Source: Tahibacter harae
GTDB lineage: Bacteria > Pseudomonadota > Gammaproteobacteria > Xanthomonadales > Rhodanobacteraceae
Length of the DNA: 64,000 bases
Assembly (NCBI RefSeq): GCF_024437735.1
Contig: NZ_JANFQO010000011.1
Coordinates: 1-64,000 of the forward strand
Reading direction: 5' to 3'
Shown here piece after piece: positions 20,468 through 31,524 of the stretch. Position numbers and translations under genes: made by a program. Position 1 is the first letter of the stretch. Each line of letters opens with the position of its first letter. The notes below the pieces were generated by a model. That model worked only from the letters and a program-made list of their open reading frames with translations. It did no database searches and had not been told where the DNA came from.

Positions 20468-20640
20468 GCGGGCTCCGGAGCGAAACCGCCGCGTGGCAGC
20501 GGCCCTGGTCTGGATCCTAGCAGCCTGGTTATTAATTGCAATCGTATACGTGTATCTGATTTTGCGAAAATCTTAAAGCTAAATTGAGACGTGCTTTGCA
20601 AAAATCGTGAGCCGGTGCGGCGCCGTTTTCCGCTGTGCCT

Positions 20641-20773
20641 GGCTTGAGGCTTGAGGCTTGAGGCTTGAGGCTTGAGGCTTGAGGCTTGAGGCTTGAGGCT
20701 TGAGGCTTGAGGCTTGAGGCTTGAGGCTTGAGGCTTGAGGCTTGAGGCTTGAGGCTTGAGGCTTGCGGCTTGC
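20641..20773. repeat. 19-copy heptanucleotide tandem array (GGCTTGA)
   Basis: Seventeen perfect copies of GGCTTGA are followed by two GGCTTGC variants, 133 bp in all. It lies in the 403-bp gap between two minus-strand hemerythrin-like genes, 174 bp upstream of the start at 20467. A unit of seven is prone to slippage and would shift any spacing by seven bases. Around it the gap holds an AT-richer stretch (20521-20600) that could carry the promoter of the downstream gene; no gene is seen in the gap. Confidence 0.95.
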
Positions 20774-20870
20774 GGCACACTGGCTGTGGCGCAATGGATC
20801 GGGTGCCACGGGCGCAGCCGCACATCCCAGGCGAGGCCCGGGATGCGCGGCTGTCGGTCGGGACGGAATC

Positions 20871-21392
20871 TCAGGTCGGCATGTACAGCGGGTAGAGGTT
20901 GCCTTCCTCGCGCTGGATGCGCTGCACCAGCAGGCCGCCGACGGCGCGGTAGTCGGCGAGGAAGCCGTGCAGCAGATGTTCCGGGTCGTGCTGCGCCTGG
21001 TATTTCTTGACGAAGTCGATGACGCCGCGGGCGATGGTGTTCATTTCGCGGCGGAAGTCGCGGATCAGGCTGAGATTTTCCGCGTCGTCGCGCAGGGTCG
21101 ACTCGACATAGTTGTAGAAGCGCACGTTCTCGGTCAGCAGGTGCGCTTCCAGGCGGGTCTTGAACGCGGTGAGCAGGGTCGGGATTTCGGTGAAGCGGCG
21201 CTGTTCGTAGGTGCGGCCGATCTGCTCGAACAGGGCGATGAGCTCCTGGTGGTCGTTCTTCAGCGCTGGCACCAGGCCGGAATCGTAGCTTGGCGCGCGC
21301 GGCGCCGGAGCAACGGTGGGCCGCAGCGGGGCGGCCGGTGCAGGCGCGGGTTTGGCCGGCTGGCCGATCAGCTTGCGCAACATGTCGAGCAT
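20871..21392 (-). CDS. hemerythrin-like protein, paralogue 2
   Basis: A 173-residue paralogue of the protein at 19955-20467, with the same layout: amphipathic N-terminus MLDMLRKLIG, Pro/Ala-rich linker (11-36), ALKNDHQELIALFEQI (His48), LEAHLLTENVRFYNYV (His84, Glu88) and REEGNLYPLY. The start at 21392 has GAGGAGG six bases upstream; a longer frame to 21485 is Arg-rich and unlikely. Together they suggest a local duplication. A role in oxygen or NO sensing is possible from the hemerythrin fold but not shown. Confidence 0.82.
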   Translation of the reverse strand: MLDMLRKLIGQPAKPAPAPAAPLRPTVAPAPRAPSYDSGLVPALKNDHQELIALFEQIGRTYEQRRFTEIPTLLTAFKTRLEAHLLTENVRFYNYVESTLRDDAENLSLIRDFRREMNTIARGVIDFVKKYQAQHDPEHLLHGFLADYRAVGGLLVQRIQREEGNLYPLYMPT

Positions 21393-21736
21393 GAAACCTC
21401 CTCGGCCGCGTCGGGCGGCGCTGGTGCGGGGGCGCGCTGCCACGCGGTGCGTACGCGGCGCCGGACCGCGCCGATATCCGGGCACGGCTTGGCGCGCTGC
21501 AGCAAAACCGGCAGCGGTCGTTCAGGCATGTAAAAAGTGCGCATAGCCTACCGAATTGCACGTAAGAAAAATATGACGAATCGCGCATTAGAAAATAAGT
21601 GGATAAGCGACGGAGTGGGGATTGGCAACTGCCGGCGCGGGCGGCCGGCGCCGCACTGCGTCGGAGTGTCGCAGGGCTGTTTTACATTCCATCATTGATG
21701 GTATGTTTCGGCCGCGCTCCGAACGGAGAATCCGGC
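21393..21736. other. divergent regulatory region, no gene
   Basis: A 344-bp gap between the hemerythrin-like gene (minus) and the DevBCA-type operon (plus). It includes an AT-rich island at about 21530-21610, unusual for this genome, that likely holds the promoter of the minus-strand gene, and the palindrome at 21684-21706 described separately. No supported reading frame was found. Confidence 0.6.
21684..21706. promoter_or_regulatory. candidate TetR operator overlapping operon promoter
   Basis: A 23-bp palindrome, ACATTCCATC-ATT-GATGGTATGT, with 9 of 10 arm positions complementary, lies 30 bases before the first ATG of an operon that encodes a TetR repressor as its second gene. TTTACA at 21681 and TATGTT at 21702 form a weak, closely spaced promoter overlapping it. 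Autoregulation by the TetR protein is the simplest reading. Confidence 0.6.
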
Positions 21737-22105
21737 ATGAACCATTGGCTGTTGGCTGCCGCCATTGCGGCCCTGCTCACCTTTGCGGTGCATACCTTCG
21801 TCGGCGGCCGCCTGATCGCCGCGCCGCTGCTGGCCGCACCGGGACTGGCGCGGATTCCGCGCCTGACGACGTACTACTGCTGGCATATGGTCAGCATCCT
21901 GCTGCTGGCTATGGCGCTGGCGCTGGGCTGGACGGCCTGGCAGGCCAATCCGCCAATGGTGCTGCTGCTGGTGGTGCTTGCCGCGGCGTTCGCGTTGCTG
22001 AGCCTGGGCCTGGCCGCGGCGTTCCGGGTCAGCCCATGGCAGCTGCCACAGTGGATCTTCTTCGTGCTGATCGCGCTGCTCGGCGCCGCCGGTCTGAGTG
22101 CATGA
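21737..22105 (+). CDS. small four-helix membrane protein
   Basis: A 122-residue hydrophobic protein with about four transmembrane helices; His residues occur in the first helix end (AVHTFVGGRLI) and in YYCWHMVSILLL. I do not recognise a named family. The start at 21737 has GGAG upstream. Its TGA stop overlaps the ATG of the tetR gene by four bases, so it is the first gene of the five-gene export operon and probably shares its regulation. It could be an accessory subunit or an unrelated passenger. Confidence 0.75.
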   Translation: MNHWLLAAAIAALLTFAVHTFVGGRLIAAPLLAAPGLARIPRLTTYYCWHMVSILLLAMALALGWTAWQANPPMVLLLVVLAAAFALLSLGLAAAFRVSPWQLPQWIFFVLIALLGAAGLSA

Positions 22106-22674
22106 TGGCGCGGCGCAGCGAGGTTGACTGGATCGCGATTGGCCTGGCGCTGCTGGCCGAGCATGGCCATACCCGCCTGACCGTGGCGGATCTCTGCGCG
22201 CGCTCGGGGCTGACCAAGGGCTCGCTCTACCACCACTATCCGGACATGGGCGCGTTCCGCGCCGCGCTGCTCGCGGCTTGGCGCGAACGCAATACCGAGC
22301 GGCTGATCCTGGAAGCAGAACGCCAGGCGAGCGTGGCAGAGAAAACCCGCGTGCTCGACCACCTGGCCCAGGCGCTGGATCCGGCGCTGGAACGCGCCGT
22401 GCGCAATTGGGCCGCACACGAGGCCCAGGCGCGCGAGACGGTGCAACAGGTGGACCGCCAGCGCATCGACTATCTCGCCGGCCTGTGCCGCGAGGAAGGC
22501 GTCGGCGCCGCCGAGGCGCGCGACCACGCTACGCTGACCTATGCCGTCTACCTGGGGTTGCAGCAACTGTTCGGCGCCGACGAACAGGCCATTTTGCGCC
22601 GGCTCGCGCCCAAGGTGGAATTCGTGCTGCCGGCGGCGACGCGCGGCGGAACCGCCCGCGGACGGCGTGCATGA
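22102..22674 (+). CDS. TetR-family transcriptional regulator
   Basis: A 190-residue repressor. Residues 8-55 form the TetR helix-turn-helix (LLAEHGHTRLTVADLCARSGLTKGSLYHHY); the rest is a ligand-binding helical domain without recognisable ligand signature. It overlaps the preceding membrane-protein gene and the following permease gene through ATGA, so it is translated as part of the operon it most likely controls via the palindrome at 21684-21706. A start three bases later is equally possible. Confidence 0.92.
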   Translation: MMARRSEVDWIAIGLALLAEHGHTRLTVADLCARSGLTKGSLYHHYPDMGAFRAALLAAWRERNTERLILEAERQASVAEKTRVLDHLAQALDPALERAVRNWAAHEAQARETVQQVDRQRIDYLAGLCREEGVGAAEARDHATLTYAVYLGLQQLFGADEQAILRRLAPKVEFVLPAATRGGTARGRRA

Positions 22675-23818
22675 ACGCCGCCGGACGCGGCCTGGGCGGC
22701 ACCAGCCTGCTCGCCTGGCGCAATCTCAGCCACGACCGCGCGCGCTTTGTCGTCACCCTGGTCGGCGTGTTGTTCGCGGTGCTGCTGATGGGCGTGGAAC
22801 TGGGCCTGCTGCTGGGGTTCGCGCGCACCACCTCGGGCATGGTCGATCACACCCAGGCGGATCTGTGGATCACCCCGGCCGGCACCACCAATGTGGATAT
22901 CGCCGGACGCCTGGACGAGCGCCGCCGCTTCGAGGCGCTGGCCGTTCCCGGCGTGGCCGCGGTGGATGCGCTGATGCTGCAATTCGCGTTCTGGCGCAAG
23001 CCCGACGGCGGTACCGAGAGCGTGAGCATGATCGGCTATAACCTGGCCTCGGGCCAGGGCCGGCCGTGGAATCTGGTGCAGGGCCGCGTCGAGGATCTGC
23101 AGCAGGATGACGCGGTAATCATCGACACGCTGTACGCGGCAAAGCTCGGCGTCGCCGCGCTGGGCCAGACCGTGGAGATCAATAACCAGCGTGCCCGCGT
23201 CGTCGGTTTCACCGAGGGCATACGCACCTTCACCCAGAGCCCGTACGTGTTCACCACGCACCGCAATGCGCAGAAGTTCACTTTCCTGCGCCCGGACCAG
23301 ACCACCTACCTGCTGGTGCGGCTGGTCCCCGGCGCGGATGTGGACACGGTGCGCGACGCGCTGCAGGCGCGCCTGGGCCGGGTCGATGTCTGGCGCTCGG
23401 CCGATTTCGCGCGCGCCGCGCAGCGCTACTGGCTGGTAACCACGGGCGCGGGCTCGGCTCTGCTGCTGGCGGCGCTGCTGGGGCTGGTCGTCGGCATCGT
23501 CATCGTCGGCCAGACCTTGTACGCGACAACGGTGGACCGCCTGCCCGAATACGCCACCCTGCGCGCAATGGGGGCGCCCAACCGCTATCTGTACGCGGTC
23601 ATCCTCAAGCAGGCGGCGATCAGCGCGGTGCTGGGCTTTGCCGGCGGGATGCTGCTGGTCGGCCTGGTCGTGCTGGGCGGCGAGGGCAGCACGGTCGCGG
23701 TGGCGATGCCGGCCGGACTGGTCGGCGTGCTCGCCCTGCTCACCTTGTTCATGTGCATGCTGGGCGCGCTGATCTCGATTCGGCGCATCACCCGCATCGA
23801 CCCGACCTCGGTGTTCCA

Positions 23819-23822
<4 letters not shown>
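22671..23822 (+). CDS. ABC transporter permease, DevC/MacB-like
   Basis: A 383-residue permease: one N-terminal helix (LVGVLFAVLLMGVELGLLLGF), a long extracytoplasmic domain (about 50-260), and three C-terminal helices, the FtsX/MacB layout. Motifs such as RLPEYATLRAMGAPNRYL and the overall order permease-ATPase-fusion protein resemble the cyanobacterial DevBCA glycolipid exporter, whose homologues export lipids, peptides or drugs in proteobacteria. The ATG overlaps the TetR stop; the stop overlaps the ATPase start. The substrate is not determined by sequence. Confidence 0.9.
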
Positions 23823-24519
<697 letters not shown>

Positions 24520-24523
<4 letters not shown>

Positions 24524-25518
24524 AACCGCTGCTGCCCTGCGTGGCCTGCCTCTTCCTGCTCGCCGCCTGCGGCGGCGCGGCGCCGCCCGCGCCGTCGGCG
24601 CAGGCGCAGATCAGTTCCGTCGCCGCCGGCGGCCTGGTCGAGCCGGCCGGCGAGGAGCGCGTGCTGATTCCGCAGATCTCCGGCCGTCTGGCCAAGGTCC
24701 ACATCGCCGAGGGCGACGCGGTACAGGCCGGCCAGCTCATCGCCGAAATCGAGAACAGCGAATACCGCGCCGCCCTGGCCGCGGCCACGGCCGAGCTGCA
24801 GCGGCGCGAAGCGGAACTGGCGCGCCTGCGCGCCGGCGCGCGCGCCGAAGAGCTGGCCGCCGCGGCGGCGGCCCGGGACGAAGCCGCGGCGCTGGAGCAG
24901 CAGGCCCTGGCCGAGCGCGAGCGCCGCGACAACCTGCTGCGCAACAGGCTGATCGCGGTAGAGGCCGCGCAGCAGGCGCGCGCCCAGGCCGCCGCCGCCA
25001 CGGCGCGGCGCCAGCGCAGCGAGGCCGACCTGGCTCTGCTGCGCGCCGGCGCCCGCGCCGAAGACATCGCCGCTGCCGAGGCGGCCGTGGCCGCCGGCCG
25101 GGCCGATGTGGAGCGCGCCGCGGCGCTGCTGGAAAAGACCCGCATCTACTCGCCCATCGCCGGCCATGTGCTCAAGCGCGACCTGGGCGAGGGCGAGACC
25201 GTGGTCGCCCTGTCGCCGCTGCCGCTGGCGCGCATCGGCGACCTGAGCAAGCGCTACGTGCGCGCCGACGTGGACGAACTGGACATCGGCCGCGTCCAGG
25301 CCGGTCAGGCCGCCACCATCACCAGCGACGCCTTCCCGCAGCAGCAGTTCGCCGGCAAGGTGGTGCGCGTGAGCCAGCGCATGGGCCGGCGCAATTCGAT
25401 TTCCGGCGATCCGGCGGAGAAGCAGGATGCCAAGATCCTCGAAACCCTGATCGAGCTGGAGGGCGCGCCGCCGTTGCCGATCGGGTTGCGGGTGGATGTG
25501 AGGATTGCGGTGAAATGA
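24520..25518 (+). CDS. lipoprotein HlyD/DevB-like membrane fusion protein
   Basis: A 332-residue periplasmic adaptor. It has a lipoprotein signal with LAAC lipobox (Cys17), a lipoyl half-motif near AKVHIAEGDAVQAGQLIAEIENS, a long Ala/Glu/Arg coiled-coil hairpin (about 85-205) and a beta-barrel ending LRVDVRIAVK. Such adaptors connect an ABC pump to an outer-membrane channel; no TolC-like gene is adjacent. It closes the five-gene operon. The next gene, the SagB-type dehydrogenase, ends 62 bp away on the opposite strand. Confidence 0.9.
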
Positions 25519-25580: not shown

Positions 25581-26753
25581 CTATTCCTTGTCCGGCCAGA
25601 TCTTGCCCAGCGGGTCGAATTCGCTGGTGACGCGCTCTGCCGCGCGCCGGCCGAAACCGCAGACCGCGAGCACGCCTTCGTCCAGGCCATCCAGGCCAAA
25701 GGCCTGTTCGATTTCCTTTTCGTTGATTGCCGCGGTGACAAAGGCGCCCAGGCCTTGCTCGGTTGCGGCCAGGTACAAGGTCTGCGAGAGATGGCCGGCG
25801 TCCAGTGTCACCACGCGATAGGCCTTGGCATGGTTGCGGTACTTCCAGAAGCTGCGCGCGAAGCGCGAAACCAGGGCGATCAGCACAGGTGCATCGGCGA
25901 AATAACGCTGGGCGGCGACACTGCGCAGAGCCAGGTCATCGGCCGCCGCCGCATCCAGCGGCTGCAACAGTTCCAGCTCATGGCGCAGCGGCTGGTAGTG
26001 GTATAGCCCGCAGGCGACGCCGGCCACACGCTTGACGATCAGATAGGCTTCGGTCGGATGCAGGCCGCCGCCGGAGGGGCTGTTGCGCTTGAGCACCGGG
26101 TTGCCCGGCAATACCTCCACCACGGCCTGGGCGCCGAAGACACGGTGCAGCAAGGTGGAAAATGTATTGCCGTCCATTTCCGCGGATGCGTCGAAATTGC
26201 GGCAGGTGGCCCGGCGCTGCAGCAGTTCGTCGAAGCTGTTGCGAAGCGGCGGCGGCAAGGCGATGGCATGGGCGGATTTCCGCGCCGTCACCGCTGGCGG
26301 TGCGCCGAGCTTGTCTACCATTTCGCTGAAGCGGTCGTAGCCCGCGCGCTGGGCATCTTCGCCCGAACGCACCTGGCTCCAGCGGCTGAAGTAATGTTGC
26401 GTCGCGGACAGCGCCGCCCAATGGGTGTCGCGCAGGCGCTGGTCGCGCCGGGCCGCCGCTGTAGGCGGCTCCTGGTCGCTGAGGAGCAGGCCTCGTTCGA
26501 GCAGGCCATCGACCAGGGACGCGCCGTAACGTTCGTGCAGTTCGGCCAGGCTGCTCCAGGCCTCCACTGGCATGCCGGCGAGAATCCCGACCTGCTGCGG
26601 CGTGATCGGGATTTCCTCGTCCAGGTGCGCGGCCAGCGCATACAGCCCGCGCTCGGCGGCGATGCCGTCGCCGCCGGCGAGCAGTCCCTCCAGGTCCAGG
26701 CGCAGGCTCTCGCGCGGCTCGAACACGAGTACGGCACAGCGGCGAACACGCAC
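25581..26753 (-). CDS. SagB-type putative peptide maturation dehydrogenase
   Basis: A 390-residue protein. Residues 15-95 look like a winged-helix segment (TPQQVGILAGMP... LVDGLLERGLLL), as in SagB-type proteins, and 165-385 form a nitroreductase-like FMN domain: RRATCRNF (180-187), SPSGGGLHPTEAYLIV (225-240), the diagnostic SagB signature, and LGAFVTAAINE. SagB enzymes oxidise azolines to azoles in thiazole/oxazole peptides. The start is a GTG at 26753 with GGAG six bases upstream. It is divergent from the modified-peptide gene and matches, from memory, the TIGR04511 group. No YcaO cyclodehydratase is in the window, so the substrate reaction is uncertain. Confidence 0.88.
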   Translation of the reverse strand: MRVRRCAVLVFEPRESLRLDLEGLLAGGDGIAAERGLYALAAHLDEEIPITPQQVGILAGMPVEAWSSLAELHERYGASLVDGLLERGLLLSDQEPPTAAARRDQRLRDTHWAALSATQHYFSRWSQVRSGEDAQRAGYDRFSEMVDKLGAPPAVTARKSAHAIALPPPLRNSFDELLQRRATCRNFDASAEMDGNTFSTLLHRVFGAQAVVEVLPGNPVLKRNSPSGGGLHPTEAYLIVKRVAGVACGLYHYQPLRHELELLQPLDAAAADDLALRSVAAQRYFADAPVLIALVSRFARSFWKYRNHAKAYRVVTLDAGHLSQTLYLAATEQGLGAFVTAAINEKEIEQAFGLDGLDEGVLAVCGFGRRAAERVTSEFDPLGKIWPDKE

Positions 26754-27056
26754 GGGCGGCTCCGGCCAAAGAATGCAGGCTAGCTTGCGCCTGCGCGCAG
26801 TCGCAAGCCGCCGAACGGCGACGGGCGCTGTTGCCAGCGGTGCCGGGTCGGCTTGTACAGTCGCAATCGGTGAGCACATGGCCTGCTTGTTGCAACTGGA
26901 TGCACTGGCTAAGCTGCCGGCACGCTGCGGAACACACGTTCCCGCGGTGCTGCACTGCTCAGGGAATGGGTGCAGTAGTCCACAGCAGCCGCAGTCTGCG
27001 TCAAGCAAAGAAGACGCAGGTTTACCGATACCGTATAGCCAGATCAGGGGGGACAT
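26754..27056. other. divergent promoter region of the peptide-modification locus
   Basis: A 303-bp gap between the minus-strand dehydrogenase and the plus-strand peptide gene must carry both promoters. TATAGC at about 27034 is the nearest -10-like element to the peptide start, without a convincing -35. I see no gene, hairpin terminator or obvious operator in it. Confidence 0.45.
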
Positions 27057-27314
27057 ATGGCCAATGAACTGACTCCGCAGCAGGTCGAACTGCTGCTGGA
27101 CCGTCTGGGTAATGACGACAATTTCCGCGCCGCGGTCAGCAAGGACCCTGCCGCCGCGCTGCAATCCGCGGGATTGCCGGTGGAGCTGGCGGCCTGCTTC
27201 CAGAAGGCCGAGACGCTGCCGACCAAGCAGGCCGCGGTCGCGGCGAATCAGGTATTGCGCGCCAAGAGCAATGTCACCTTGTCCATGAGCATCCACAAGC
27301 TCTGCGATCGCTGA
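27057..27314 (+). CDS. putative modified peptide with NHLP-like leader
   Basis: An 85-residue precursor-like peptide. Residues 1-45 resemble a nitrile-hydratase-alpha-type leader (LTPQQVELLLDRLGND-NFRAAVSKDPAAALQSAGLP), the leader class used by many RiPP systems. Residues 66-85 form a possible core with Ser71, Thr74, Ser76, Ser78 and Cys83 among hydrophobic residues. No Gly-Gly cleavage site is seen. A strong AGGGGGG ribosome site precedes the ATG by four bases, implying high translation. It lies between the divergent SagB-type dehydrogenase and the convergent cyclase-like gene, the arrangement of the 'putative modified peptide' family (TIGR04509, from memory). Confidence 0.85.
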   Translation: MANELTPQQVELLLDRLGNDDNFRAAVSKDPAAALQSAGLPVELAACFQKAETLPTKQAAVAANQVLRAKSNVTLSMSIHKLCDR

Positions 27315-27420
27315 GCCGGATTGTTTCCGGGTAATCCGGCGCAGAGGAAGAGCGCCGCGCAAGGGGGGCGGCTCGTCGGGCGAGCGGTCCGGCGGTCTCT
27401 CGCGGCAGTCGTTCGACGGG

Positions 27421-27450
27421 GCAGGCCGGCCGCCATGGCGGCCGGCCTGC
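27421..27450. terminator. 14-bp palindrome between convergent peptide and cyclase genes
   Basis: A perfect 14-bp stem with a two-base centre sits one base past the stop of the cyclase-like gene and 106 bp past the peptide stop. It lacks a T-run, so it is a hairpin that may separate the convergent transcripts; termination ability is uncertain. Confidence 0.5.
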
Positions 27451-27451
27451 A

Positions 27452-30097
27452 TCAGGGCTTCTGCCTGACTGCGGCAAGCCGCCGGGCGAGGCCTGGCGGC
27501 AGCGGCGCCGCCCACGCCCGTTCGAAGGCGCCGGCGTATTTCTCCGCCTCGTCGTAGCGCTTGAGAGCGTGGCTGTATTCGGCCGCGCACAGTAGCGCGT
27601 GGGTGGACTCCAGCACGTTGACCAGCGACAGCATCTGCAGTGCGCTGTCTTCCGCATAGGCGCGGCCGCGGTGATGCGTCAGCCACAGCGCCTGTTCCAG
27701 TGCTTCTTCGTGGCGCCCGGCCGCGGCATAGGCGTCGCGCAGGGCGACGCGGGTCAGGTACAGGCTGGTGTCGTTGACGAAGGGGCGCAGCGTTTCCACC
27801 GCCCTGTCCGCGTCGCCCCTGGCGCGCTGCAGTTCGGCGCGCGCGATCGCGGCCAGATTGACGGCGTTGGGGAATTCGCTGCTCTCGGCCGGTTTGGCAA
27901 TCTGTCCGACGAGGCTCTCGGCCAGTTCGCCATTGCCACTGCGCGCCGCGGCATAGGCGGCGAACAGGCTGGCTTCGATCGCGTGATGGCGTTCCAGGTC
28001 CTCCGTGTCCAGGCCGGCGGCGAGTTCGATTCTTGCGAAGCTGCGCAGCGCGGCGTCGGCATCGGGCTGTGCAGCGAACAGCAACAAGCTGCTGCGCATG
28101 CCTTCGAACACGCGGTGATACAGCGGACCGGCGGCCTTGGCCGCTTCCAGTGCGCTGCCGCTCAGGCGCAGGGCTTCGTCGAACTGGCCTTGGTCGGCGG
28201 CCAGCAGCAGGCGTACTCGCCAGCGGAATACGTCATTGCCGGCGACCCCGCTGTCGCGCGATTCGGCCAGCGCCGCATTGGCCTGCACGAAGCGGCGTTC
28301 GGCCGCGAGCAATTCCACATGCTGCAGGCCCATGCCATCGCCCCTGAGCTGACGCGCAAGGCGCAGTTGCTCGGCGGCCTTGGCGTAGTCGTCGCTGGCG
28401 AGGTACAGGGCACCGAGCAAATAGCGGCTGGAGCCCAGGCGCGGATTGTGCGTCGACAGCGCCGGCGCCAGCGCGGTGATCGCGTCGGCGTAGCGATTGG
28501 CATAGGTGCGCAGCATCATCGCGTAGTTGGCGTGGGCGGCGTGATAGTCGGGATACAGCTTGGCCAGCACGCTCCAGCGTTCGAACATGACGGCCGGCTT
28601 TTCCAGGCTGGCGGCGATCGCGTCCACGTACATGGCCTCGCGAGTCGGCAGCTTGTCGCGCAGTTCCTGCGCGCGGCGCAGCGAAGGCAGGGCGGCGACC
28701 TTGTCCGACGCGCTCAGGTAAATGCCGGCGATACCGACATGGGCCAGGGCGAAATCCGGATCCAGCGCGATCGCCTGGCGGTACATGGCCAGCGCCTCGC
28801 CCCAGTTCTCCGTCGCCAGCGCGCGCCGGCCCAGGGAGAATGCGCGCAGGGCGTCGATATTTGACGTCGTCACCTTGGCCAGCGGCTGCGTAGTCTCCGA
28901 AATCGCCGCCAGGTTCTCGCCCAGGCGCTGGCGCAGGGCTTCGTTGACTTTGTCGATGGAGGCCAGTGCCGATTCCACGCCTTCGCCCTCGGCCGATTCG
29001 GTATAGACCGTGGCTTCGGTGGTGGGGTCTATCACTTCAGCGGTGATGCGCAGCTTGCCGCCGACTTCGGTCGCCAGCGGCAGAATGGCGGCCTTGGCGC
29101 CTTCGCGCAGGGCGATCTCGGCGGCGCGGCGGCGGTCGACCTTGACCTTGGCCGGGTCCAGTTCCATGCGCCGCAGGGTGTCGCGCACCTGCAGATCGGA
29201 TACGACATTGACGTGGCGCGACTGCTCCAGGCCAATGCGGAAGGCGGTGCGCAGGGTGTCGTCCAGCGCACTCGCGGTGGTCAGGTTGTTGATATCGCCG
29301 ACCACGACCCAGTCGCGCTCGGCGAAGGCGATCGCCGCGGGCGGCCGCAGCAGCAGCCACAGGCCCAACAGCAGGGCGGCGGCGGCGATGCCGGCTTCGA
29401 TGAACATGCTGCCGGGGCGGCGCCACCAGGGCACTTCGCGCCAGGCCTTGCCGGAATACGGCGGCAGGCGCAGCGGCGCAATGCCGGCTTCGCCCACTTC
29501 GTAGACCACCAGCGGCTCGGGTACGCCCTTGAAGCGGTAGCGGCCGTGGTTGAGCCAGCGCGTGCGGTCGGCGTTGGCGCCCAGCTCGCCATGGGCGCGC
29601 TGGGCCAGGCTGGCGGCCACGCCGGAGACCAGGATCTGGCCGGGCAGGGCCAGCGAGGCCAGGCGCGCCGTCACCGGCTTGACCAGGCCCTCCACCTCGA
29701 TCGGCTTGGCGCCGTGGACCACGTCGCCGGGATCGTTCTGCCAGACCAGCACATCGCCCACATGCACGCCGATGCGCGCCTTGAGCACCAGACCTTCCTC
29801 CTGGCTCAGGCGCATCAGCTCGCGCTGGTAGGCCAGGGCGTAGGCGACGGCATGGATGGGACGTTCAAACAGCACCAGGAAGCCGTCGGTCTTGTCGATT
29901 TCCTGGCCCTGGTGGCGCAGCATCAGGTCGCGGGCCAGGCGGTCGTGCCGGCGCAGCAGGGCAGCGGCGCGCTGGTCGCCCAGGCGTTCAACCAGGCTGG
30001 TCGAATCGACCAGATCGCACAGCGCCAGGCTGCGCAGCAGCGGTTCGCCCTGCTGCGGCTGCGCCGTGGGTTCGGCGGGGGACACCAAGGCGTTCAT
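27452..30097 (-). CDS. putative peptide modification system cyclase (class III cyclase-like, TM, TPR)
   Basis: An 881-residue protein. Residues 20-200 are a class III nucleotidyl-cyclase-like domain: CDLVDST with metal-ligand candidate Asp28, DKTDGFLVLF with Lys69 and Asp71, and ARIGVHVGDVL. The usual transition-state Asn appears replaced (Pro141 near PVTARL, Arg145 kept), so catalysis is doubtful. Residues 231-250 are a transmembrane helix, 255-390 a CsgG/TolB-like domain, and about 400-870 TPR-type helical repeats. The start at 30097 has AGGAG nine bases upstream. It matches the cyclase partner (TIGR04510, from memory) of the modified-peptide family and is convergent with the peptide gene. 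Confidence 0.85.
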   Translation of the reverse strand: MNALVSPAEPTAQPQQGEPLLRSLALCDLVDSTSLVERLGDQRAAALLRRHDRLARDLMLRHQGQEIDKTDGFLVLFERPIHAVAYALAYQRELMRLSQEEGLVLKARIGVHVGDVLVWQNDPGDVVHGAKPIEVEGLVKPVTARLASLALPGQILVSGVAASLAQRAHGELGANADRTRWLNHGRYRFKGVPEPLVVYEVGEAGIAPLRLPPYSGKAWREVPWWRRPGSMFIEAGIAAAALLLGLWLLLRPPAAIAFAERDWVVVGDINNLTTASALDDTLRTAFRIGLEQSRHVNVVSDLQVRDTLRRMELDPAKVKVDRRRAAEIALREGAKAAILPLATEVGGKLRITAEVIDPTTEATVYTESAEGEGVESALASIDKVNEALRQRLGENLAAISETTQPLAKVTTSNIDALRAFSLGRRALATENWGEALAMYRQAIALDPDFALAHVGIAGIYLSASDKVAALPSLRRAQELRDKLPTREAMYVDAIAASLEKPAVMFERWSVLAKLYPDYHAAHANYAMMLRTYANRYADAITALAPALSTHNPRLGSSRYLLGALYLASDDYAKAAEQLRLARQLRGDGMGLQHVELLAAERRFVQANAALAESRDSGVAGNDVFRWRVRLLLAADQGQFDEALRLSGSALEAAKAAGPLYHRVFEGMRSSLLLFAAQPDADAALRSFARIELAAGLDTEDLERHHAIEASLFAAYAAARSGNGELAESLVGQIAKPAESSEFPNAVNLAAIARAELQRARGDADRAVETLRPFVNDTSLYLTRVALRDAYAAAGRHEEALEQALWLTHHRGRAYAEDSALQMLSLVNVLESTHALLCAAEYSHALKRYDEAEKYAGAFERAWAAPLPPGLARRLAAVRQKP

Positions 30098-30405: not shown

Positions 30406-31443
30406 TCAGGCGATGACGCGGTGGTTGTCGCCGCCTTCGCCCTTGACCAGGTACAGGGCGCAGTCCGAATCGCTGTACCAGGCCGACCAGTCGGCGGTCT
30501 CGTGGCACAGGCTGCCGCCGACGCTGACGCTGACCGTCAGCCCCTCGGCCGGGGCATGGAAGCGCAGGCCGCGCACGCCGCTGGTGATCTGGGCGGCGCG
30601 GCTGCGCAGCTCGTCGGCATCCTTGACCTGCACCAGCAGGGCGAATTCGTCGCCGCCCAGGCGGCAGGGCAGGTCGCAGGCCGCGGCGGCCTGCTGCACC
30701 TCGCGCGCGACGGCGCGCAGGGTCAGGTCGCCGGCGAGATGGCCGTAGTGATCGTTGATCTGCTTGAAGCGGTCGATGTCGATCAGCAGCAGGCCCAGGC
30801 GCAGGCCGGGCAGGCGCTTGCTGCGCAGCTCTTCCAGGTAGCTGTACAGACCGCGCCGGTTGCACAGCCCGGTCAGTTCATCGGTGCGCACCAGGCGTTC
30901 GGCGGTGGAGAGCTGGGTCTGGGTCTGGCGCAGCGAATCCAGCGTGACCATCAGGTCTTCGTTGCGGCGCTTGAGGCTCTGGATCAGCTGCTGTTCGCTG
31001 GCCACCAGGTAGGAGAACGAGCGCCGCATGAACTGCGCCAGCAGCGGCGCTTCCGTCTGTAAAAGTTTCTCGAATGCGGCGTGCTCGATCACGCGCAGTA
31101 CGGCGGCTTCCGCGGCGACCGCGTTGGCCACGCGCGCGTGGTTGCCGATGAACAGGGCCAGCTCGCCGAAGAATTCGCGGGCGCCGATCAGCTTGTCCGG
31201 CATGCCGTCGCCGAATTCCAGCTGAATGGTGCCGGATTCGATCACGAACATGGCCCGGCCCAGCTCGCCCTTGCGGAAGATCATCTCGCGCGCGACCAGT
31301 TCGCGGCGCTGGCCGGCGCCGACGAACAGGGCCAGCTCCTCGTCCGACAGCTGCCGCGGCAGGAAGGTCGGGCGATGGCGGGCGAAGGCGCTGCTGGGCG
31401 TGGCCGACTGCGTCAAGGAAGCTCCAGGACTGACCATGACCAC
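30406..31443 (-). CDS. cNMP-binding-domain diguanylate cyclase
   Basis: A 345-residue signalling protein. Residues about 25-145 are a cyclic-nucleotide-binding-like domain (REMIFRKGELGRAMFVIESGTIQLEF, then GAREFFGELALF), a short helix joins it, and residues 185-345 form a GGDEF domain with intact RLGGDEFALL, so c-di-GMP synthesis is expected. I prefer a GTG start at 31443 with GGGAGG six bases upstream; ATGs at 31437 and 31482 are alternatives with poorer ribosome sites. It is upstream of the cyclase-like gene on the same strand, suggesting a cyclic-nucleotide link, but the 308-bp gap makes co-transcription uncertain. Confidence 0.9.
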   Translation of the reverse strand: MVMVSPGASLTQSATPSSAFARHRPTFLPRQLSDEELALFVGAGQRRELVAREMIFRKGELGRAMFVIESGTIQLEFGDGMPDKLIGAREFFGELALFIGNHARVANAVAAEAAVLRVIEHAAFEKLLQTEAPLLAQFMRRSFSYLVASEQQLIQSLKRRNEDLMVTLDSLRQTQTQLSTAERLVRTDELTGLCNRRGLYSYLEELRSKRLPGLRLGLLLIDIDRFKQINDHYGHLAGDLTLRAVAREVQQAAAACDLPCRLGGDEFALLVQVKDADELRSRAAQITSGVRGLRFHAPAEGLTVSVSVGGSLCHETADWSAWYSDSDCALYLVKGEGGDNHRVIA

Positions 31444-31524
31444 GAAATCCCTCCCCGGGATCCCTCGTTGTGGATCAGGCATCTTACATCAGCCGCCGGC
31501 GCCGGCCAGCCGGGCCGGCGGGCT

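Follow-up and report, generated by a model that had tools for sequence, protein, structure and literature searches.

A putative peptide-signal locus with a predicted XC_0250-type guanylate cyclase gene in Tahibacter harae and its relatives

The DNA considered here, referred to below as the window, is a 64,000-nucleotide stretch of Tahibacter harae (assembly GCF_024437735.1, contig NZ_JANFQO010000011.1, positions 1 to 64,000). Between positions 25,581 and 30,097, it carries adjoining genes for a small precursor peptide, a SagB-type flavin dehydrogenase, and a membrane-bound nucleotide cyclase. Comparison of this locus with those of related bacteria revealed a feature that is new to this analysis: in some relatives, the cytoplasmic domain of the cyclase can stay near-identical while the periplasmic half of the same protein, the peptide, and the dehydrogenase are replaced jointly. 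With moderate confidence, we interpret the locus as a pherotype-like peptide-signal module that would feed a cascade leading from cyclic GMP (cGMP) to cyclic di-GMP (c-di-GMP).

An initial annotation of the window, made without database searches, had described a complete three-gene locus resembling those for ribosomally synthesized and post-translationally modified peptides (RiPPs), and had named the models TIGR04509, TIGR04510, and TIGR04511 for its products. The three open reading frames are present at the coordinates it gave, and their products matched all three NCBIfam models above the curated cut-offs, the genes being mutually adjacent. While the three genes are real, they do not make up a stand-alone biosynthetic cluster: the conserved unit has a fourth gene (30406-31482), coding for a protein with a cyclic nucleotide-binding (cNMP) domain and a GGDEF domain. 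The source genome (5.99 Mb in 79 contigs) contains one copy of the TIGR04509 peptide. The parts of the locus are as follows.

25581-26753, minus strand: SagB-type FMN dehydrogenase (TIGR04511), predicted peptide maturase; matches to TIGR04511, TIGR03605, and PF00881
26754-27056, no strand: intergenic, divergent promoter region of the dehydrogenase and peptide genes
27057-27314, plus strand: precursor peptide of 85 residues (TIGR04509, 50.4 bits, cut-off 34)
27452-30097, minus strand: cyclase, whole gene (TIGR04510, 892.7 bits, cut-off 400)
29498-30097, minus strand: N-terminal part of the cyclase, predicted cytoplasmic class III (guanylate) cyclase domain, residues ca. 1-200 (TIGR04510; conserved D28, D41, D71, and A150)
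29342-29404, minus strand: predicted transmembrane segment of the cyclase, residues ca. 232-252 (hydropathy)
27452-29335, minus strand: predicted periplasmic half of the cyclase, with a TolB-like region (labelled by eye) and TPR repeats (TPR matches; divergence profile and DNA breakpoints in relatives)
30406-31482, minus strand: cNMP-binding and GGDEF diguanylate cyclase of XC_0249 type (PF00027, 57.6 bits; PF00990, 114.8 bits)

To compare relatives, 398 genomes at the level of the order Xanthomonadales were surveyed, and 120 loci from 120 genomes were chosen from the TIGR04511 and TIGR04510 hit lists, not randomly. Replacement and covariation were analysed with the 92 loci that contain exactly one full-length cyclase, peptide, and dehydrogenase, the other 28 being excluded. 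In 52 pairs of loci with a cyclase-domain distance below 0.06, the median distance was 0.03 for the cyclase domain, 0.38 for the TolB-like region, 0.59 for the first and 0.75 for the second TPR half, 0.50 for the peptide leader, 0.70 for the peptide tail, and 0.41-0.53 for the dehydrogenase. The same pattern could be observed at the level of DNA. Between loci L104 and L134, identity is 96.9% as far as cyclase residue ca. 254, just beyond the membrane segment; no DNA could be aligned across the ectodomain, the peptide, and the dehydrogenase, the last of which is also inverted; and an identity of 98.8% resumes ca. 250 bases past the dehydrogenase. When seven pairs, picked mostly from the most discordant ones, were inspected for breakpoints, a swap was found in six (it was absent in L071/L077), with the lower breakpoint 40-255 bases past the dehydrogenase.

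A rule based on DNA alignment was then applied to all 82 pairs with a cyclase-domain distance below 0.10, a pair being scored as swapped when less than 25% of the ectodomain-peptide-dehydrogenase segment was alignable. By this rule, 38 pairs were swapped; the upstream flank aligned in each of them, and both flanks in 37. The breakpoints of these 37 pairs fell at cyclase residues 266-415 (window numbering), none of them in the catalytic domain. Four of the 15 clusters of close relatives contain the swapped pairs (a cluster of nine members accounts for 23 and one of seven for 13, and two clusters that are single pairs add one each), while by the protein distance of the second TPR half alone, at least two cassette types are present in eight of the 15.

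Joint replacement suggests that the ectodomain, the peptide, and the dehydrogenase may be functionally matched. We favour such matching because a locus with two full-length cyclases and a single common dehydrogenase (L113) gives each cyclase its own peptide, and because the peptide tail covaries with the TPR part of the cyclase but not with the TolB-like part. Partial rank correlations, computed without regard to phylogeny, were 0.18 between the tail and the first TPR half, 0.10 for the second TPR half, and -0.13 for the TolB-like part; the leader covaried most with the N-terminal region of the dehydrogenase (0.26). In a within-group permutation test, likewise uncorrected for phylogeny, all ten pairs of blocks exceeded all 200 permutations. 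Since every pair did so, the test does not single out a contact between tail and ectodomain, and the breakpoints were relied on instead. Locus L145 repeats the pattern of L113, with its second cyclase truncated by the contig end.

In polymorphic signal-peptide systems, ComQXPA and agr among them, the peptide, the modifying enzyme, and the receptor ectodomain vary jointly, while the output domain is conserved. The loci studied here resemble them in this joint polymorphism. They differ from them in their Gram-negative host, in a flavin dehydrogenase that takes the place of the prenyltransferase or AgrB, in a guanylate cyclase that takes the place of the histidine kinase, in a ligand that is putative, and in the confinement of clean swaps to the four clusters mentioned above.

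The output side of the locus corresponds to a described pathway. In Xanthomonas campestris, XC_0250 makes cGMP, which binds XC_0249 and raises its synthesis of c-di-GMP; mutation showed XC_0250 residues D41, D71, L73, A150, L157, and A161 to be important (EMBO J 2013, PMC3770947, main text). Two of three Xanthomonas orthologues of family TIGR04510, those from X. hortorum and X. euroxanthea, have all six residues at identical numbers; the third, from X. cucurbitae, does not keep all six (it has isoleucine at 157). The window cyclase has D, D, F, A, V, and A at these positions, so that four of the six are kept and the other two changes (L73 to F, L157 to V) are conservative. When the window cyclase was aligned with Ma1120, the first metal-binding aspartate was D28, while the main text of the XC_0250 paper names D41 (PMC3770947); in the family, D28 is conserved in 100% and D41 in 98%. 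The best TPR match of the window cyclase, to PF13432, reached 32.4 bits, marginally below the cut-off of 32.7, and Pfam's own cyclase domain model gave no match in this protein at E 0.1.

The gene for the cNMP-GGDEF protein lies directly upstream of the cyclase gene and on the same strand in 107 of the 116 loci with enough upstream sequence, the nine others being L081, L098, L103, L109, L113, L123, L131, L141, and L145. This is the count to use; another one, 162 of 181, is redundant because 80 of its loci overlap the surveyed genomes. Among the cGMP contacts, E90, L91, H98, and E146 are invariant in all 109 rows with letters (seven of the 116 rows are gapped), and at position 145, 74 rows have N, 27 have S, and 8 have G. 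The window protein has S at this position, and thus keeps four of the five contacts E90, L91, H98, N145, and E146; its GGDEF motif is intact. The X. hortorum protein is near-identical over 128 residues to PDB entry 5h5o (a cNMP domain, entitled 'Diguanylate cyclase'), the sole sequence at E 1e-25, and we infer that 5h5o is XC_0249. Entry 4KG1, the structure deposit of PMC3770947, did not appear in this PDB search, nor among the 60 of 90 matches listed in another search. The neighbours of the X. campestris genes were deduced from records of five other Xanthomonas species and of one further Xanthomonas, X. campestris itself lying outside the fetched loci.

By orthology, the window cyclase appears to be of XC_0250 type and the neighbouring gene of XC_0249 type, and the same pathway would operate here. 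The view of the initial annotation that no function is known to be established is therefore incomplete, XC_0250 being a proven guanylate cyclase and XC_0249 its cGMP-responsive partner. The family name 'peptide modification system cyclase' can mislead, because the protein is predicted to be a nucleotide cyclase, and is most likely the receptor rather than a modifying enzyme. Of 124 full-length relatives, 111 have a single transmembrane segment as predicted from hydropathy. In these 111 proteins, lysine plus arginine amounted to 5.5 before the segment and 2.1 after it, and the N-terminus was placed inside for this reason. The window protein has an additional borderline hydrophobic segment at 146, inside the catalytic domain. 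The predicted single-segment topology fits a receptor.

The XC_0250 pathway has no known input: in the main text of PMC3770947 and in the available text of a review (PMC8042644), the TPR part of XC_0250 is described as uncharacterised. The main text of PMC3770947 contains none of the terms peptide, operon, SagB, nitroreductase, XC_0251, or XC_0252, and the peptide, the dehydrogenase, and the cassette swap are additions of the present analysis to the pathway described there. A literature search, the coverage of which falls short of most subscription journals, revealed among the titles and abstract starts of the matches listed none that ties the cGMP pathway to a modified peptide; a search on the numbers TIGR04509, TIGR04510, and TIGR04511 gave no match. 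The locus supplies candidate input genes beside the putative receptor, and two questions merge into one, namely, what the orphan TIGR04509/TIGR04511 pair produces and what XC_0250 senses.

The genes of the locus are strongly associated across the order. TIGR04511 was matched in 121 of the 398 genomes (119 above cut-off), TIGR04510 in 121 (120 above cut-off), and TIGR04509 in 120. When the hit lists were compared by hand, the dehydrogenase and the cyclase were found together in 119 genomes and all three genes in 118; in the sole genome with the first two and no TIGR04509 match (G289), a peptide was found by a custom profile (L133). Their co-occurrence is far above chance, and the peptide gene recurs beside SagB-type genes, a recurrence on which the initial annotation had made its reading depend. 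In 85 of the 120 loci, the cyclase and dehydrogenase genes point the same way with the peptide gene reversed between them, and in eight more the dehydrogenase gene is inverted. These two commonest simple layouts, each with one precursor, one cyclase, and one dehydrogenase, account for 93 loci; the remainder are mostly variants with extra peptides or doubled units, and one locus (L152) has the cyclase alone.

Some of the variants are extreme. Locus L123 (genome G256) has a single cyclase that is surrounded, within 20 kb, by 10 precursor peptides and five dehydrogenases. At positions 4615-6800 of L081, five closely similar precursor copies follow each other ca. 400 bases apart, and the cyclase lies beyond the dehydrogenase, on its far side. 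In L078 (8170-9999) and L079 (8155-9996), a cyclase paralogue without a catalytic domain, made up of the membrane segment, the TolB-like region, and TPR repeats only, directly follows the dehydrogenase as a sensor-only copy.

Loci outside the order were also found. Two Streptomyces loci (L217 and L230) and one from Kribbella (L229) carry TIGR04509-type peptides (one, two, and five copies, respectively) and a TIGR04511-type dehydrogenase, and six Duganella or Rugamonas loci (L191, L203, L208, L216, L221, and L227) carry the peptide and the dehydrogenase; no cyclase was present in the fetched stretches, which extend to at most 15.4 kb. Three peptides and three dehydrogenases from loci outside the order were tested, and all scored above the TIGR cut-offs. 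The actinobacterial loci suggest that the peptide-enzyme pair has been transferred across phyla. Since no cyclase accompanies the two genes in the stretches fetched from outside the order, the peptide-dehydrogenase pair looks like the core of the system, and the cyclase like its usual partner within this order. The peptide gene of the Duganella and Rugamonas loci has a very long open reading frame beside it; in L191, L203, and L221 this reads as a hybrid histidine kinase of the Reg_prop/Y_Y_Y (propeller) type, a different membrane sensor (an assignment that Pfam confirmed for L203). This kinase is weak evidence, because the wider neighbourhood is conserved as well in these Oxalobacteraceae.

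The dehydrogenase of the window scored 502.4 bits against TIGR04511 (cut-off 240) and 130.6 bits against the SagB-domain model TIGR03605 (NCBIfam). It consists of an N-terminal region of ca. 170 residues without an assigned fold and a C-terminal nitroreductase domain (PF00881). Its start was placed at the GTG at 26753, with an alternative longer in-frame start at 26879, because methionine occupies alignment column 43 in 92% of 114 rows, where the window has V. Columns invariant in 75 sequences include R47, W167, R223, R227, G271, R342, W345, K346, Y347, H350, and K352 (numbered from the start at 26879), and the FWKY of the window, in the region of W345-K352, aligns with the FWKY of CyaGox. We take the K346-Y347 region to correspond to the catalytic pair of azoline oxidases. 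The enzyme is like the azoline oxidases SagB, McbC, and CyaGox in its SagB-type nitroreductase domain and its FWKY alignment; unlike them, it has no YcaO partner and belongs to a separate subfamily, TIGR04511, with a conserved N-terminal region that begins MRxRRC.

The initial annotation had described a SagB-type enzyme with no YcaO beside it, and a search bears this out for the whole source genome, in which the number of YcaO genes is zero. In the survey set, YcaO is present in 48 of the 398 genomes and in nine of the 119 with TIGR04511 above cut-off, in none of the nine within 500 kb on the same contig. Azole chemistry through a YcaO encoded elsewhere was rejected on these counts. In a tenth genome with both, G109, a SagB-type gene was seen less than 3 kb from a YcaO gene (contig C51, positions 89992-94223); it scores below the TIGR04511 cut-off and is not of this family, and this locus of the order probably represents a true azole cluster. 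Chemistry based on cysteine was also rejected as a universal rule, 16 of the 144 peptides being free of cysteine; 97 of the 144 have none in their last 25 residues.

The peptide is laid out as an NHLP/Os17-type leader (residues ca. 5-41), a middle segment, and a variable tail (residues ca. 71-85). The leader type proposed by the initial annotation is confirmed by the TIGR04509 match and by conservation in 144 relatives, in which leader columns L13, L17, D20, F23, R24, and G39 are conserved at 90% or more and the tail is mostly variable. A precedent for YcaO-free chemistry on such a precursor comes from Pseudomonas, where, according to the available text of a preprint (PMC12636437), the YcaO-free nitroreductase half of PflD converts the Phe of Ile-Phe-Asp in an NHLP precursor to Z-dehydrophenylalanine, and similar roles are proposed for other YcaO-free nitroreductases. 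In the tails of the relatives, a pair of the form [FL][DE] is present in 89 of 144, compared with 34.3 after shuffling (maximum 48), and the same pair with Pro or Val two to three residues earlier in 60 of 144, compared with 8.1. Like the PflD fusion of a nitroreductase with an MNIO (multinuclear non-heme iron-dependent oxidase), as described in the preprint text, the window enzyme is a YcaO-free nitroreductase next to an NHLP-type precursor, the match of the window leader to the Os17 leader model NF038399 being subthreshold (29.6 bits, cut-off 40). Unlike PflD, it stands alone as a TIGR04511 protein and has an N-terminal region of its own; neither an MNIO nor a HEXXH partner was seen at the locus, and the window tail lacks a Phe-Asp-like pair. 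The locus also draws attention to a large set of flavoenzymes without YcaO, for which no test of the chemistry was found in the literature covered.

Control of the peptide gene was analysed with the motif TMAA-N14-16-GCCGATA, which we take to be a consensus of sigma-28 type, allowing at most one mismatch in 11. Of 109 intergenic regions, 26 have such a site before the peptide gene (shuffles gave a mean of 0.3 and a maximum of 2), and none has one in the direction of the dehydrogenase gene; over 20 repeats, random windows taken from these loci yielded 0-2 of 109. FliA is encoded in 58 of 118 genomes, including all 26 with the site and 24 of the 79 others (Fisher 4e-11, phylogeny ignored). The 26 loci (e.g., L071, L078, and L114) are confined to three genera, coded g38, g58, and g67. 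In Xanthomonas and nearby genera, this predicted promoter is a strong link between the peptide and the motility regulon. For the peptide gene of the window itself, sigma-28 control was rejected: the region has a site with two mismatches only, and the genome encodes no FliA above cut-off. A TTG-N17-20-TAGATT site occurs in a separate set of 19 loci, and CRP-like sites were found in the divergent promoter in 10 of 113 cases, compared with 1-6 in five shuffles.

In the mechanism that we favour, a precursor of ca. 85 residues with an NHLP-type leader, observed as a sequence, would be produced to serve as a signal. The YcaO-free SagB-type flavoenzyme would bind the leader and, by analogy with PflD as described in the preprint text, dehydrogenate (-2 Da) a hydrophobic residue near the C-terminus. 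The tail would then be released and exported, a putative step, and be sensed by the membrane guanylate cyclase through its matched periplasmic TPR half; the joint replacement in relatives supports this step, and binding is putative. The resulting rise in cGMP would activate the adjoining cNMP-GGDEF protein and lead to synthesis of c-di-GMP, as it does in the orthologous XC_0250/XC_0249 pathway. The modified peptide would, this suggests, be a strain-specific signal controlling biofilm-type behaviour. A broader proposal is put forward tentatively, as something we find possible and would not yet call probable: a Gram-negative pherotype system in which a ribosomal peptide, oxidatively modified without YcaO, is the ligand of a membrane receptor guanylate cyclase and the missing input of XC_0250, relatives exchange a single specificity cassette (peptide, maturase, and receptor ectodomain) that connects to a conserved output from cGMP to c-di-GMP, and a sigma-28-type promoter ties the system to motility in Xanthomonas and its neighbours.

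Several observations weigh against the signal-module reading. With respect to maturation and export, the N-terminal region of the dehydrogenase gave no RRE-type (RiPP recognition element) or leader-binding sequence match in PDB and Pfam, and the [FL][DE] pair is missing from the window tail, as it is from 55 of the 144 tails (by the tail rule, two of these are empty and one has two residues). No exporter was recognised, by eye, among the 30 neighbour clusters listed; the six representatives checked were an S9 peptidase, a Mg-chelatase type protein, a biotin carboxylase, an isocitrate lyase, a malate synthase, and one protein without a match. An S9-type peptidase (prolyl oligopeptidase family) lies beyond the dehydrogenase in 18 of the 120 loci only (e.g., L037, 302-2548); it may be a leader or tail protease, or a chance neighbour. 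A genome search for C39 peptidases gave a single match, on another contig, and the alignment columns of the peptide contain no conserved double-glycine site. In Streptomyces, Kribbella, Duganella, and Rugamonas, moreover, the fetched stretches contain the peptide and the dehydrogenase but no cyclase. With respect to replacement, the swapped pairs stem from only 20 of 47 loci, and 16 of the 44 unswapped pairs still have a distance of at least 0.5 in the second TPR half, so drift or fast evolution accounts for part of the pattern. The window and its nearest congener (L100) are a pair of this kind, with no clean swap: 56% of the segment DNA aligns, and the distances are 0.08 for the cyclase domain, 0.63 for the second TPR half, 0.73 for the tail, and 0.29 for the C-terminal part of the dehydrogenase. 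Covariation of the tail is about as strong with the dehydrogenase (0.16 and 0.15) as with the TPR part. Finally, because the ectodomain, the peptide, and the dehydrogenase are contiguous, a single recombination tract replaces all three, and joint replacement indicates shared fate, not contact.

The alternative that survives best, which we nevertheless consider unlikely, is that the peptide is secreted as an antibacterial or metal-binding agent, that the cyclase senses no more than its level or the envelope stress resulting from it, and that the swapped cassettes are toxin or immunity types of competitors. NHLP-type precursors are often precursors of natural products, allele swapping also occurs at competition loci, and some loci have many precursors, 10 in L123 and five in L081. 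Yet no immunity gene or exporter was recognised by eye among the 30 neighbour clusters listed, the commonest neighbour is a signalling protein, and the 93 simple loci have one precursor each. Somewhat less probable still is an intracellular role, in which the peptide, remaining inside the cell, works with the dehydrogenase as a redox- or flavin-responsive regulator, the neighbouring cyclase being regulated only transcriptionally. This would agree with the lack of a visible export signal, with the invariance of W345, K346, Y347, H350, and K352 in the 75 dehydrogenases despite variation in the peptide, and with a Western blot of whole cell lysates that suggested a full-length precursor in the related Pseudomonas system (available text of PMC12636437); joint replacement of the ectodomain alleles with the peptide and the dehydrogenase would, however, be needless for an intracellular regulator.

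An improbable explanation, ranking just behind, is that phage or predator pressure or fast evolution diversifies the ectodomain, and that the peptide and dehydrogenase genes are passengers in the same recombination tract. The contiguity of the three parts, the predicted location of the ectodomain outside the cytoplasm, and the diverged second TPR half of the 16 unswapped pairs all speak for it. On the other hand, the lower breakpoint in the six inspected swaps lies past the dehydrogenase gene, so the tract covers the whole unit, and the peptide-dehydrogenase pair is conserved without the cyclase elsewhere. An azole product of the thiazole/oxazole-modified microcin or linear azole-containing peptide type, with the dehydrogenase oxidising azolines made by a distant YcaO, is very improbable, since the SagB-domain match that speaks for it is set against the YcaO and cysteine counts given above.

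Adjoining the dehydrogenase gene of the window, a TetR regulator, a MacB-like permease, an ABC ATPase, and an HlyD-type protein are encoded at 21622-25518. This MacB-like ABC set (22.3-25.5 kb) was considered as a conserved exporter and rejected, as it is not among the frequent neighbour clusters. A tandem repeat at 20532-20825 yields SLKPQASSLKPQAS in several open reading frames; it lies near two open reading frames that resemble each other, and one of these two (20871-21485) codes for a hemerythrin-domain protein.

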